DNA of 64,000 nt, taken from assembly GCF_036345255.1 (NCBI RefSeq), contig NZ_CP107783.1, forward strand, positions 7,424,001 through 7,488,000, written 5' to 3'. Made by a program: the position numbers and the translations under genes. Source of the DNA: Streptomyces sp. NBC_00569 (GTDB lineage: Bacteria; Actinomycetota; Actinomycetes; Streptomycetales; Streptomycetaceae). The notes under the pieces were generated by a model, which saw only the letters and a list, made by a program, of their open reading frames with translations, ran no database searches and was not told the DNA's origin. This document shows positions 9,819 through 53,673 of the stretch, piece by piece; position 1 is the stretch's first letter; each line of letters begins with the position of its first letter.

Positions 9819-9824
9819 TAGACT
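9819..9824 (+). promoter_or_regulatory. -10 element TAGACT of the ABC-F transcription unit
   Basis: TAGACT lies six bases before an ATG at 9831, so the transcript probably begins at that ATG (leaderless). No good -35 is visible at the standard distance. It is the best promoter candidate for the ABC-F gene, whose own GTG is 90 bases downstream. Confidence 0.55.
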
Positions 9825-9830
9825 TGGCCC

Positions 9831-9854
9831 ATGGCCATTCTCCGCATGCACTAG
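9831..9854 (+). CDS. Seven-residue leader peptide MAILRMH upstream of ABC-F
   Basis: ATG GCC ATT CTC CGC ATG CAC TAG encodes MAILRMH. It is positioned as the first, leaderless cistron of the ABC-F transcript. The stop codon overlaps the left arm of a weak six-base inverted repeat (9854-9859 with 9883-9888). Short upstream ORFs are known to control ABC-F antibiotic-resistance genes by ribosome-mediated attenuation. That this one does so is an inference. Chance occurrence is possible because the ORF is so short. Confidence 0.4.
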   Translation: MAILRMH

Positions 9855-9913
9855 ACGGCTCATCGCCCTCAGTAGCCCTTCCGCCGTCCATATCCCTGCT
9901 CAGGAGTCTGTCC

Positions 9914-11512
9914 GTGATCACCGCTTCCGGCATCGAGCTGCGCGCCGGCGCCCGCATCCTCATCGAGAACGCCACCTTCCGTATCGCCAAGGGCGACCGC
10001 ATCGGCCTGGTCGGACGCAACGGCGCGGGCAAGACGACGCTCACCAAGTGCCTCGCCGGTGAGGGCACCCCGGCCGGAGGTCAGATCGCCCGCTCCGGAG
10101 AGGTCGGCTACCTGCCGCAGGACCCCCGCACCGGCGACCTCGACGTCCTGGCCCGCGACCGCATCCTGTCCGCGCGCGGCCTCGACACCCTGATCCAGAA
10201 GATGCGTGACAACGAGCAGCGCATCGCCAACGGCACGGGCGCCACGCGCGCGAAGGCGCTCAAGCAGTACGAGCGCCAGGAGACGGAGTTCCTCACCAAG
10301 GGCGGATACGCCGCCGAGGCCGAGGCCGCCACCATCGCCGCCGCGCTCAACCTGCCCGACCGCGTGCTCGGCCAGCCCCTGCACACGCTCTCCGGCGGAC
10401 AGCGCCGCCGTATCGAGCTGGCCCGCATCCTCTTCTCCGACGCGGACACCCTGCTCCTCGACGAGCCCACGAACCACCTCGACGCCGACTCCATCGTCTG
10501 GCTGCGCGACTACCTGAAGTCGTACCGCGGTGGCTTCATCGTGATCTCCCACGACGTCGACCTCGTCGAGACGGTCGTCAACAAGGTGTTCTACCTGGAC
10601 GCGAACCGCTCCCAGATCGACGTCTACAACATGGGCTGGAAGCTCTACCAGCAGCAGCGCGAGGCCGACGAGAAGCGCCGCAAGCGCGAGCGCCAGAACG
10701 CCGAGAAGAAGGCCGCGGCCCTCAACTCCCAGGCCGACAAGATGCGCGCCAAGGCGACCAAGACCGTCGCCGCGCAGAACATGGCCAAGCGCGCCGACCG
10801 GCTGCTCGCCGGGCTCGACGCGGTCCGCGTCTCCGACAAGGTCGCCAAGCTGCGCTTCCCCGAGCCCTCCCCGTGCGGCAAGACGCCGCTGATGGCCGAG
10901 GGCCTGTCGAAGTCGTACGGCTCCCTGGAGATCTTCACCGACGTCGACCTGGCCATCGACAAGGGCTCGCGCGTCGTCATCCTCGGCCTCAACGGCGCGG
11001 GCAAGACCACCCTGCTCAAGCTGCTCGGCGGGGCCGAGAAGCCGGACACCGGCGAGATCATCGAGGGCCACGGCCTCAAGCTCGGCTACTACGCGCAGGA
11101 GCACGAGACCCTCGACCCGGAGCGCACGGTCCTGGAGAACATGCGCTCCGCCGCCCCCGACCTGGACCTGGTCGAGGTGCGCAAGACGCTCGGTTCGTTC
11201 CTGTTCTCCGGGGACGACGTCGACAAGCCGGCCGGTGTCCTGTCCGGCGGTGAGAAGACCCGCCTCGCGCTCGCCACGCTCGTCGTGTCGTCCGCGAACG
11301 TCCTGCTCCTCGACGAGCCCACGAACAACCTCGACCCGGCCAGCCGCGAGGAGATCCTCGGCGCGCTGCGCACCTACAAGGGCGCCGTCGTCCTCGTCAC
11401 CCACGACGAGGGCGCCGTGGACGCGCTCCAGCCGGAGCGGATCATCCTGCTGCCCGACGGCGTCGAGGACCTCTGGGGCCAGGACTACGCGGATCTGGTC
11501 AGCCTCGCCTGA
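9914..11512 (+). CDS. ABC-F family ATP-binding protein (translation factor type)
   Basis: A 532-aa soluble protein with two ABC ATPase domains and no membrane part, the hallmark of ABC-F ribosome-associated factors. Domain 1 has Walker A GRNGAGKTT, signature LSGGQRRR and Walker B LLLDEPTNHLD. The charged linker (ADEKRRKRERQNAEKKAAAL and onward) is the P-site tRNA interaction motif. Domain 2 has GLNGAGKTT, LSGGEKTR and LLLDEPTNNLD. GTG 9914 is preceded by AGGAG at seven bases. The family includes EttA-like factors and antibiotic-protection proteins; which type this is cannot be decided here. A leaderless mini-ORF precedes it. Confidence 0.93.
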   Translation: MITASGIELRAGARILIENATFRIAKGDRIGLVGRNGAGKTTLTKCLAGEGTPAGGQIARSGEVGYLPQDPRTGDLDVLARDRILSARGLDTLIQKMRDNEQRIANGTGATRAKALKQYERQETEFLTKGGYAAEAEAATIAAALNLPDRVLGQPLHTLSGGQRRRIELARILFSDADTLLLDEPTNHLDADSIVWLRDYLKSYRGGFIVISHDVDLVETVVNKVFYLDANRSQIDVYNMGWKLYQQQREADEKRRKRERQNAEKKAAALNSQADKMRAKATKTVAAQNMAKRADRLLAGLDAVRVSDKVAKLRFPEPSPCGKTPLMAEGLSKSYGSLEIFTDVDLAIDKGSRVVILGLNGAGKTTLLKLLGGAEKPDTGEIIEGHGLKLGYYAQEHETLDPERTVLENMRSAAPDLDLVEVRKTLGSFLFSGDDVDKPAGVLSGGEKTRLALATLVVSSANVLLLDEPTNNLDPASREEILGALRTYKGAVVLVTHDEGAVDALQPERIILLPDGVEDLWGQDYADLVSLA

Positions 11513-11541: not shown

Positions 11542-11636
11542 GATCACGGTCGGCCGTCAGCGCGGCTTGATCGAAAGGCTGATCCACTCGGTATGGATCA
11601 TTCGGCCGATCCGTGATCCATCATCTGAGTGAGATC
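11542..11636. promoter_or_regulatory. Cluster of seven GATC sites upstream of gbn
   Basis: GATC starts at 11542, 11569, 11581, 11596, 11608, 11615 and 11633. At this GC content about 0.2 copies would be expected in 95 bases. The spacings are irregular. The downstream gene encodes Gbn, a GATC-binding nucleoid protein, so this is a probable autoregulatory binding array. An eighth site is at 11863, 40 bases before the gbn start. The rest of the 11513-11905 gap has no convincing gene. Confidence 0.7.
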
Positions 11637-11905
11637 TCCTCGTACCGCGGTGTGTCCTACACGGATTTCGTCGCCGCACCGGCGCCGGGGCCCTTGTGTT
11701 GACGGACAACGCGCTGACCTGGCCCTTCGCGGACAACGCCGTTTCCGGCCTCGTCGAGGTGTGCCCGGAACCCTCCGTTCCGCTCGTGTCGACCGCTTCC
11801 CGACCGCACAAGCTCGTCGTACGGACCTTGCCGAATGGGTGGCCAGGAAGCCCGGGAGGGGTGATCATGAGAAGTCCAGAGCGCACTTCCCATGAGGAGG
11901 CACGG

Positions 11906-12130
11906 GTGGCCGAGACTCTGAAGAAGGGCAGCCGGGTAACCGGCGCCGCGCGCGACAAGCTCGCGGCAGACCTGAAGAAGAAGTACGACTCCGGTGCGAG
12001 CATCCGAGCGCTGGCCGAAGAAACCGGCCGCTCGTATGGGTTCGTGCACCGGATGCTCAGTGAGTCGGGAGTCACGCTGCGAGGTCGCGGCGGGGCTACA
12101 CGCGGCAAGAAGGCGACCGCGGCCGGCTGA
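11906..12130 (+). CDS. gbn: GATC-binding nucleoid-associated protein Gbn
   Basis: A 74-aa basic protein with a single helix-turn-helix: LAADLKKKYDSGASIRALAEETGRSYGFVHRMLSESGV covers roughly residues 18-56, followed by a Gly/Arg/Lys-rich tail. It matches what I remember of SCO1839 (Gbn) of S. coelicolor, an actinobacterial nucleoid protein that binds GATC-containing sites and affects development. The same neighbours (ABC-F gene, enoyl-CoA hydratase) support this. GTG 11906 follows GAGGAGG at five bases; longer readings to 11696 lack support. Its upstream region is packed with GATC, suggesting autoregulation. Confidence 0.9.
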   Translation: MAETLKKGSRVTGAARDKLAADLKKKYDSGASIRALAEETGRSYGFVHRMLSESGVTLRGRGGATRGKKATAAG

Positions 12131-51636: not shown

Positions 51637-53673
51637 TCAGCCGCGCGGGCCCCTCCGGGGTGGCTGCGGCCCCTCCTCGTCCGGCGCCGACGGTGACCGT
51701 GACGGCGGGCGCGGCAGTGGCGGTGGGGGAGGAGGCGGTGGCGGCACGGGCCATCCCTTGCCGGACCCGGACCCGGAACCCGACCCGGGCCGCCCTCGCG
51801 GACGCGGCGGCACCGGTGGCCTGACCGGCCCCACCATCGTCGGCGCCCCGTACAGATCGTCCGGCAGATCATCCTGCCGATTGCCCGACCGATCGCTCGG
51901 CCTGTTCTCCGACCGATCCTGCGGCCGATCGCTCGGCCTGTTCTCCGACTGATCTTGCGGCCGATCGTTCGGCCTGTTCTCCGACTGATCTTGCGGCCGA
52001 TCGCTCGGCCTGTTCTCCGACCGATCCTGCGGCCGATCGCTCGACCTGTTCCCCGACCGATCGCTCGTCCGATCGCCCGCCCGTTCGTCGGCCAGTTCGC
52101 CCGGCGGCTTCAGATACGGGTTCGTCGCGTCCGGCGACGCCCGGTACGGCGTGCTCGGCCGATACGGCCCCGCCTCCTGGGACGGGACGAGCCCGACGGG
52201 CCGGACCACACCGTCCCCCCGTTCGCGCGGTTCGCCCCGTGCCCACCGCTCCTCCGGTTCCACTCCGCCCCCGCTCAGCGCAGCTGGCGCCGCCCGCCGG
52301 CCCGCCGCCCCCGCCCCGTGAGCCAGCAGCGCTCCCACCGCTCCCGCCCCCGCTCCCCAGGCGGCCCCGAGCAGCAGCGCCATGCCGAGATGTCCGTGCA
52401 GCTCGATGCCGGCCCCGAACGCGTCGAAGCCGAGTACGGACAGCGAGGCGTCCGCCGACACGTCCGTCAGCCGCACGAGCAGCGGGAGGCCGAGCGCCAT
52501 GACGACCCCGAGCCGCAGCGCGCACCTCCCGGCGAAGCCGGCGGCGCCCATCGGCCGCGACCCGGGCCCGCCGGTCACCGCAGGTGTCCGCACGGCGGTC
52601 AGTACGCCCGCGAGCACCGTCATCAGAAGGGTCGCGAAGGCCAACAGCCATATTCTGTCGTCCAGTTCGGCGAGACGGCCCAGCGTCACCGGCTCGTTCG
52701 TGTGCATCCGCAGCAACTCGTCGACCGGGTGGGGAAGGGTCTGCGCGAGAGTGCCCGTCGCCTTGCCGTCCCACGGGACGAAGAGGCCGAGGGGGATGCC
52801 GAGCCACACCCCGTTGGGTGCCCCGAGCAGCGCGGCGCCCGCGATCCGCCGCGGATGGTCGTCGCCGATCATCGCGTACGCCGCTGCCGCGAGCCCCGCG
52901 GCAACCGCTACCGACAACACCGTGACCAGTGACGAAGCGGCGGGACGGACCACCCGGTGCAGCGCGTCGAGGGCGCGCGGGAGCGGCGTCCTGCGCGAGG
53001 CGAGCAGTGCGATCAGCAGGACGCCGATCACCCACGCGGCGCCGCCCAGCAGAGAGGATCCGGTCTCGACGGTGAACCCGACGGTCGCCTTCGCGTCCGC
53101 GAGGCGGCCGATGTGGTCCGGCAGGAGTCCTCCGAGGTCGAGGCCGCCCGGCAGCTTGTCCTTGATGCCGCCCGGCAGATCCCCGTCCGGTATCCGGTCG
53201 AGCCCGAGCTTCCCGCCGTCAATCGTGATGAGGTCGTGACCCGCCCGGGCAAGCCCTGCGAGCATCGCCAGAAACAGTGTGACCACGCTCCCCGCGCGTG
53301 CCGCGAGTTCGGCCGGCGTGACCTCAACTCCCGCCCCACGTAGGGAACGCAGGAAGAACCAGCTGAGCAGCAGAGCGCCCGTGAGGCCCACGCCGAGCGG
53401 CGCGATATCGATGGCCGTGTGGGCCTGCGCGCCGTCCAGTCCGAAGGCTGAGACGTCTCCCGACGGCGTGACTTTCCCACCCACCCCAAGGGCCACCACC
53501 GCGGCCGTCATCGGGCCGAGCGAACCCGCGGAATCCGCTCCGAGCAGATGAAGGCCGGCCGCGGCGACCGTCGCCATCCCGATGAACGCCCAGCTCACGG
53601 AGGCGACCGCGCAGAGCAATACGTCGCTCCAGCGCACGCCCTCGCGCCCGCTCCCCCGGACAACGGTCTCCAT
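51637..53673 (-). CDS. Streptophobe family membrane protein with repeat tail
   Basis: A 678-aa protein. The first 480 residues hold about 12 transmembrane helices with long extracytoplasmic loops, including LGADSAGSLGPMTAAVVALGVGGKVTPSGDVSAFGLDGAQAHTAID. This corresponds to what I know as the 'streptophobe' family, restricted to Streptomyces relatives. The C-terminal 180 residues are hydrophilic. They contain five copies of a 12-residue unit of the form RPQDxSENRPSD, then a polyproline stretch of nine. Function unknown. It diverges from the FHA-ABC gene. Confidence 0.85.
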   Translation of the reverse strand: METVVRGSGREGVRWSDVLLCAVASVSWAFIGMATVAAAGLHLLGADSAGSLGPMTAAVVALGVGGKVTPSGDVSAFGLDGAQAHTAIDIAPLGVGLTGALLLSWFFLRSLRGAGVEVTPAELAARAGSVVTLFLAMLAGLARAGHDLITIDGGKLGLDRIPDGDLPGGIKDKLPGGLDLGGLLPDHIGRLADAKATVGFTVETGSSLLGGAAWVIGVLLIALLASRRTPLPRALDALHRVVRPAASSLVTVLSVAVAAGLAAAAYAMIGDDHPRRIAGAALLGAPNGVWLGIPLGLFVPWDGKATGTLAQTLPHPVDELLRMHTNEPVTLGRLAELDDRIWLLAFATLLMTVLAGVLTAVRTPAVTGGPGSRPMGAAGFAGRCALRLGVVMALGLPLLVRLTDVSADASLSVLGFDAFGAGIELHGHLGMALLLGAAWGAGAGAVGALLAHGAGAAGRRAAPAALSGGGVEPEERWARGEPRERGDGVVRPVGLVPSQEAGPYRPSTPYRASPDATNPYLKPPGELADERAGDRTSDRSGNRSSDRPQDRSENRPSDRPQDQSENRPNDRPQDQSENRPSDRPQDRSENRPSDRSGNRQDDLPDDLYGAPTMVGPVRPPVPPRPRGRPGSGSGSGSGKGWPVPPPPPPPPPLPRPPSRSPSAPDEEGPQPPRRGPRG
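51890..52069. repeat. 36-bp tandem repeat, five copies, rich in GATC
   Basis: Units start at 51890, 51926, 51962, 51998 and 52034, period 36 bases, with a few substitutions. Each unit contains two GATC sites. With flanking sites I count thirteen GATC between about 51855 and 52075. The repeat is in frame and encodes the 12-residue repeats of the streptophobe protein tail. It is not a CRISPR: there are no spacers. Confidence 0.9.

Follow-up and report, generated by a model that had tools for sequence, protein, structure and literature searches.

Conserved Gbn sites upstream of gbn in Streptomyces and more distant relatives point to likely self-regulation of this nucleoid protein gene

The Escherichia coli nucleoid proteins H-NS, Fis and IHF are abundant, bind DNA and are autoregulated, with binding sites in the promoter regions of their own genes.

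In Streptomyces coelicolor the nucleoid protein Gbn (SCO1839) recognises GATC, its best site being GATCWT, and its binding to promoters was reported to be, in general, mildly suppressive (Du et al. 2022, PMC9239103). Self-binding upstream of gbn is already published for this species. The text of PMC9239103 lists gbn among the Gbn-bound promoters, and the ChIP summit of SCO1839 was placed at -326 at 25 h and at -324 at 48 h with enrichments of 67.75- and 58.18-fold, which are the highest in a Table 1 restricted to genes discussed in the text. In addition, an EMSA probe of the gbn region extending from -561 to -239 and carrying eight GATC was bound in vitro (PMC9239103). Transcription of gbn is higher when hupA and hupS are both mutated (PMC11472566), and knockouts of gbn and of the nearby ccr1 have no effect on each other's transcription (PMC11272600). 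In the open-access literature we found neither a test or report of gbn autoregulation nor a comparison of gbn promoter expression in the presence and absence of Gbn; words starting with "autoregul", "feedback" or "self" are absent from the main text of PMC9239103, and its Table 1 lists no fold change for gbn, which is the gene deleted.

The gbn locus and its GATC array

The window analysed here is a stretch of 64,000 nt of Streptomyces sp. NBC_00569 (GCF_036345255.1, NZ_CP107783.1, positions 7,424,001-7,488,000, forward strand). Upstream positions are counted from the GTG of gbn at 11906.

9824..11512, plus strand: ABC-F ATPase gene upstream of gbn (NF000355 above its cut-off; start codon uncertain; stop codon 11510-11512)
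11766..11782, no strand assigned: inverted repeat CGGAAC-N5-GTTCCG, seen in the Streptomyces alignment with the consensus CGGAAT....GATTCCG
11906..12130, plus strand: gbn, SCO1839-family GATC-binding nucleoid protein (74 codons from GTG, by translation)

The product of gbn is a 74-aa protein matching Pfam HTH_58 at E 2.3e-33 over residues 5-66, which places it in the Gbn/SCO1839 family of small single-HTH actinobacterial proteins, and a Gbn match was present in 295/295 genomes of the genus, in one of them (G079) at E 9.9e-4 only. Below threshold, Gbn also matched NCBIfam HTH_Cbp1, which describes a CRISPR repeat-binding protein, at E 1.5e-8 and with 34.7 bits for a cut-off of 140. At 59 of the 82 distant loci described below the ABC-F gene precedes gbn, the gap between the two being measurable and shorter than 600 bp. 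In the window the two genes are separated by 393 bp. For the gbn promoter of S. coelicolor an AtrA site has been predicted, without coordinates (PMC9239103, section 10), and the inverted repeat at 11766-11782 is a candidate counterpart of it in this 393-bp stretch. Between the array and gbn, positions 11714-11723 read CTGACCTGGC, which is near-invariant in Streptomyces.

The preliminary description reported seven GATC sites in 11542..11636, and this is borne out: the sites are at 11542, 11569, 11581, 11596, 11608, 11615 and 11633, with the spacings of 27, 12, 15, 12, 7 and 18 correctly given. The array begins 30 bp past the ABC-F stop codon, whose last base is 11512, and occupies -364 to -270, so that "directly upstream" of gbn holds only in a loose sense. 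Its chance expectation had been put at about 0.2 and was too low, as the measured background is 0.55-0.57 GATC per 95 bp (384 GATC in the 64,000 bp of the window, i.e., 0.57, and 0.55 in an 800-kb sample of this genome). In the 864 kb of sample and window together, this array is the sole GATC cluster with seven inside 95 bp. A scan of the whole 10.3-Mb genome for close GATC triplets gave 423 places, and among the matches listed, which extend to about 2.5 Mb, there are at least two other seven-GATC runs (G000:C1:729334-729403 and 805602-805659). The GATC array upstream of gbn is exceptional in the genome, not unique, and a search of the same genome for a second copy of the 131-bp array region returned a single occurrence. 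The run at G000:C1:729334-729403, which lies outside the window, differs from the gbn array in that its seven GATC follow a strict, near-helical-phase period of 11 bp. Within the window, positions 51889-52076 hold a tandem array of a 36-bp unit (5.2 copies, 92% matches) with two GATC in its consensus.

Retention of the sites within and beyond Streptomyces

We aligned 165 Streptomyces loci with MAFFT, of which 159 were non-identical over 400 bp, and scored exact GATC in aligned columns. The set consists of 77 of the best 80 matches, the 30 best of the genus search, 28 loci from the class and order searches and 30 weaker matches picked by eye; one row (L076) is named only as an actinobacterium, the near kin L032, L064 and L065 are omitted, and second gbn-like copies in Streptomyces genomes fall outside the counts. 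The eight intergenic sites and the array core are as follows, with no strand assigned except for the last.

11542..11545 (-364): GATC, rare, 3/159 loci
11569..11572 (-337): GATC, variable, 65/159 loci
11580..11620: conserved core of the array, with TGATCCA / TGGATCA / TGATCCA alternating at 11581, 11596 and 11615
11581 (-325): core array GATC, 134/159 loci
11596 (-310): core array GATC, reading GATCATT, 151/159 loci
11608..11611 (-298): GATC, variable, 28/159 loci
11615 (-291): core array GATC, 148/159 loci
11633..11636 (-273): GATC within AGATCT, variable, 81/159 loci
11863..11869 (-43), plus strand: proximal Gbn box GATCATG, its GATCAT in a -10-like slot, 159/159 loci

The seven-site array is a conserved three-site core plus variable extras. 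It had been suggested to examine whether the GATC sites are conserved among orthologous upstream regions; the three-site core and the proximal box are kept, whereas the array of seven as such is not. All eight intergenic sites are present in 2/159 loci, the present locus included, and all array sites are absent in 4/159. The eighth site, at 11863, lies outside the coordinates of the preliminary description and is the best conserved of the eight. Only 11596 and 11863 are full GATCWT sites (both GATCAT), the other six being GATC only, and these two are the best kept (151/159 and 159/159). Two Actinacidiphila loci retain a GATC pair with the 19-bp core spacing, and in the one Kitasatospora locus only one GATC is present at this place.

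The irregular spacings had also been taken to include near-helical-turn distances that could support cooperative binding. This we find unsupported, since the conserved core spacings of 15 and 19 bp are not whole turns and those of 12 and 7 bp depend on two variable sites, 11569 and 11608; moreover, an EMSA with four motifs in 50 bp yielded three binding events, interpreted as possible steric hindrance (PMC9239103).

The inverted TGATCCA/TGGATCA repeats of the core might instead form an RNA hairpin serving as an ABC-F terminator or leader attenuator. They comprise 7-bp inverted repeats at 11580-11600 and 11594-11620, starting 68 bp past the end of the ABC-F stop codon, and double changes that keep the pairing are seen in 11 of 1,113 cells for the first repeat and in 6 of 1,113 for the second. 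Broken pairs, however, are found in 142 and 77 cells respectively, far above the pair-keeping changes, no terminator pattern was detected, no Rfam match was obtained at E up to 1, and with a fold z-score of -1.86, 10/200 shuffles folded equally well. Furthermore, a conserved palindromic protein site would pair just as well. On the ratio of broken to kept pairs, the fold score and the lack of an Rfam match up to that E value, we rejected the RNA structure as very improbable.

Across Streptomyces the sequence around the -43 site is itself near-invariant, so that within the genus the site is inseparable from its neighbours, and distant relatives were needed. The distant set, obtained by class and order searches, contains 82 loci from 30 families in 53 "genus" rows, namely 52 genera and one second copy from one genome (L207, g11b). 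It leaves out G392 (no upstream DNA), G307 (internal stop) and second copies in G412, G398, G375 and G364. The gbn start was extrapolated where the protein match began past residue 1, family f6 being the most affected, and the genera are related and hence not independent, making family counts the safer ones.

Within 120 bp upstream of gbn, GATCWT on either strand was found in 43/53 genus representatives, compared with 11/53 in the adjacent 120 bp, 2, 6 and 6 of 53 in three further upstream stretches, 3/53 inside gbn and 2/52 after it; by family the figures are 24/30 as against 0 to 4 in the control stretches. Retention of GATC beyond the neighbouring sequence, which the preliminary description had proposed to look for, is thus seen at the -43 box. 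Plus-strand GATCAT precedes gbn in 35/53 representatives, while among 206 other gene fronts of the Streptomyces sp. NBC_00569 genome, defined by crude ORF calling, 19 carry GATCWT and 2 carry plus-strand GATCAT. An enriched-word search given no motif returned GATCAT as the top plus-strand hexamer (38/56 sequences, 3.05 expected from shuffles), and once GATC was masked the most widely common hexamer reached at most 11/53 genera and 8/30 families. GATCWT is absent from these 120 bp in 10/53 representatives, and the rows without the box tend to have a more divergent Gbn, a trend only (P = 0.056).

Plain GATC counts call for caution. The 150 bp upstream of gbn hold 189 against 90.8 in shuffles, and upstream coding stretches likewise exceed their shuffles (176 against 111.6), with CATG in excess in both; given this excess in the coding controls, we relied on GATCWT and on position controls. 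Outside the proximal box, GATC counts in the distant genus representatives are 74 against 45.1 expected, and 35 against 23.3 by family, so that additional sites are a weaker general feature. Eight loci of one genus (L168-L175, family f3, genus g3) have a GATC set of their own at -155, -126 and -113 besides -43, which suggests that arrays arise separately in other lineages. Selective retention, as looked for in an autoregulatory operator, is found for both groups of sites, in the distant set for the proximal box and within Streptomyces for the three core sites.

GATCATG ends in ATG and could be kept as a start codon context, either for a Gbn extended in frame at its N-terminus or for a short ORF upstream. 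In the window this ATG (11867) shares the frame of gbn and is preceded by GGAGGGG, and the frame is likewise shared in 114/159 Streptomyces loci and in 14 of the 26 distant genera that have GATCATG. The frame differs in the other 45/159 and 12/26, a stop is met in 4 of the 14 distant in-frame cases, and a GGAG-, GAGG- or AGGA-type word stands within 10 bp before the ATG in only 2/26 distant genera. Both the extension and the upstream ORF were rejected, the frame not being maintained across loci, and we regard either as highly implausible. Neither the hairpin nor the start codon accounts for the retention of GATCAT.

It is also conceivable that the GATC sites are bound and yet non-regulatory, acting as a docking site for the nucleoid protein or as a sink that buffers free Gbn, with gbn transcription unaffected. 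Gbn-bound regions number more than 2,800, the mutant shows changes in few of the bound genes, the protein barely alters DNA conformation in vitro (PMC9239103), and four of the seven array sites are variable. Docking throughout the genome, however, needs no such retention as that of GATCWT before gbn in 24/30 families, where masked hexamers reach at most 8/30, and we consider this explanation rather improbable.

A promoter-like partner of the proximal box

The proximal box has a partner upstream.

11840..11845, plus strand: TGGCCA, -35-like element 17 bp before GATCAT (letters re-read in the window)

T(A/G)GC is found exactly 23 bp before GATCAT in 23/35 genera, other offsets having a mean of 0.27 genera, and it is missing from this position in 12/35. 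With the downstream half relaxed, TRGC-N19-nAnnAT is present in 28/53 genus representatives (shuffles: mean 0.3, maximum 2), and each of the other TRGC spacers from 10 to 29 occurs in at most 5. The slot of these 28 genera contains GATCAT in 23, GAAGAT in 3 and CATGAT in 2. Taken as hexamers, TGGCCA (11840-11845) and GATCAT (11863-11868) are separated by a 17-bp spacer, and in the Streptomyces alignment both ends of the TGGC/GATCAT pair are near-invariant and the spacer is variable. In distant genera the box lies at -23 to -91 from the gene start, a variation that would fit a promoter with leaders of different length. Each hexamer agrees with the sigma-70 consensus TTGACA/TATAAT, whose spacer is 16-18 bp, at 4/6 positions, 8/12 in total; a promoter and terminator scan of the region, whose limit for promoters was 9/12, reported nothing. 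TRGC is not a standard -35. The pair is described here as promoter-like and not as a promoter.

In the window, 11823-11845 is a mostly near-invariant stretch (GGACCTTGCCGAATGGGTGGCCA) that ends in the -35-like TGGC; related GAGTGGC or AAGTGGCC is seen in other families, including where the slot has no GATC. TRGC-N19-GATCAT was rejected as a general promoter class, as it occurs in 0/206 other gene fronts of the same genome and shows no spacer-19 peak in 864 kb.

An alternative is that GATCAT owes its conservation to a role as core promoter element, or to binding by another regulator, and resembles the Gbn motif only secondarily. The exact spacing of TRGC agrees with this, as does the slot in 5 of the 28 genera with the composite, where GAAGAT or CATGAT still conforms to nAnnAT; one genome of family f26 (L206) keeps TGGC together with CATGAT in a slot without GATC. 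Against it stand the 23 of 28 slots with GATCAT, the 12/35 genera that have GATCAT and lack TRGC at -23, and the rarity of the composite in its own genome noted above. We consider this alternative unlikely.

Proposed self-regulation of gbn

Based on these data we propose, with fair though not high confidence, that Gbn regulates its own gene, repressing its own promoter at the proximal box, and that Streptomyces adds the upstream array. The conserved TRGC-N19-GATCAT element, which would probably be the main gbn promoter, carries the proximal box GATCATG (11863) in its -10-like half. Gbn bound to the box would block RNA polymerase and so cap the level of Gbn. The Streptomyces upstream group, i.e., the core at -325, -310 and -291 with its lineage-specific extras, would add binding capacity 230-320 bp further up, and may either strengthen repression or hold Gbn near the promoter, raising local occupancy. 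The effect of hupA hupS and the predicted AtrA site are other inputs to gbn. In this scheme we infer the occupancy of the -43 box, the repression and the role of TRGC/GATCAT as promoter; upstream binding is published only for S. coelicolor (PMC9239103).

The self-regulatory array of the preliminary description is therefore upheld in part: self-regulation is likely, the evidence for it being the three-site core and the -43 box and not the count of seven. The comparison between genomes gives it better support, and the best evidence is the separate site at -43. Of the seven array sites, one is a full GATCWT. Occupancy of the upstream region by Gbn, which had been suggested as a check, was already on record for the related S. 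coelicolor, and the coincidence of the published summit (-326/-324) with the conserved core array counts in favour of self-regulation (PMC9239103). Several observations count against it. The S. coelicolor summit is at the array and not at -43, gbn expression goes up in aerial growth while Gbn remains bound, and only 9.5% of strongly promoter-bound genes changed in the gbn mutant compared with 6.9% overall, indicating that binding often has no visible effect (PMC9239103). To these we add the 10/53 representatives without GATCWT, the 12/35 genera without TRGC at -23, and the non-standard -35 half with an 8/12 sigma-70 agreement of the window pair that falls below the limit of the scan.

More tentatively, and with somewhat greater doubt than confidence, we suggest that across the Actinomycetes the gbn promoter uses a Gbn site as its -10, the rigid TRGC-N19-GATCATG being special to gbn and forming a built-in self-limiting switch that predates the families in the comparison. 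If this is true, polymerase and Gbn read the same six bases.

The S. coelicolor work concerns the same gene and the same intergenic place, for which it gives the eight GATC in -561 to -239, the summit and the binding in vitro. The published account differs from the present one in that it neither tests nor names autoregulation in its main text, makes no comparison between species and draws no particular attention to the -43 box or to the spacing of TRGC (PMC9239103).

Since Gbn binds thousands of sites and few bound genes respond to its loss, clean Gbn regulatory targets are scarce, and a site kept before gbn in most of the sampled genera makes a strong candidate for a genuine operator of Gbn. 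The proximal box makes autoregulation testable by a single small mutation and, independently of ChIP, allows the Gbn motif to be estimated as around GTGATCATGG.

Gbn differs from H-NS, Fis and IHF of E. coli in being a small HTH_58 protein with a sequence-specific site of 4-6 bp, and its repression of gbn is a proposal. What it has in common with these proteins is its abundance, its binding to DNA and the presence of its sites in the promoter region of its own gene.
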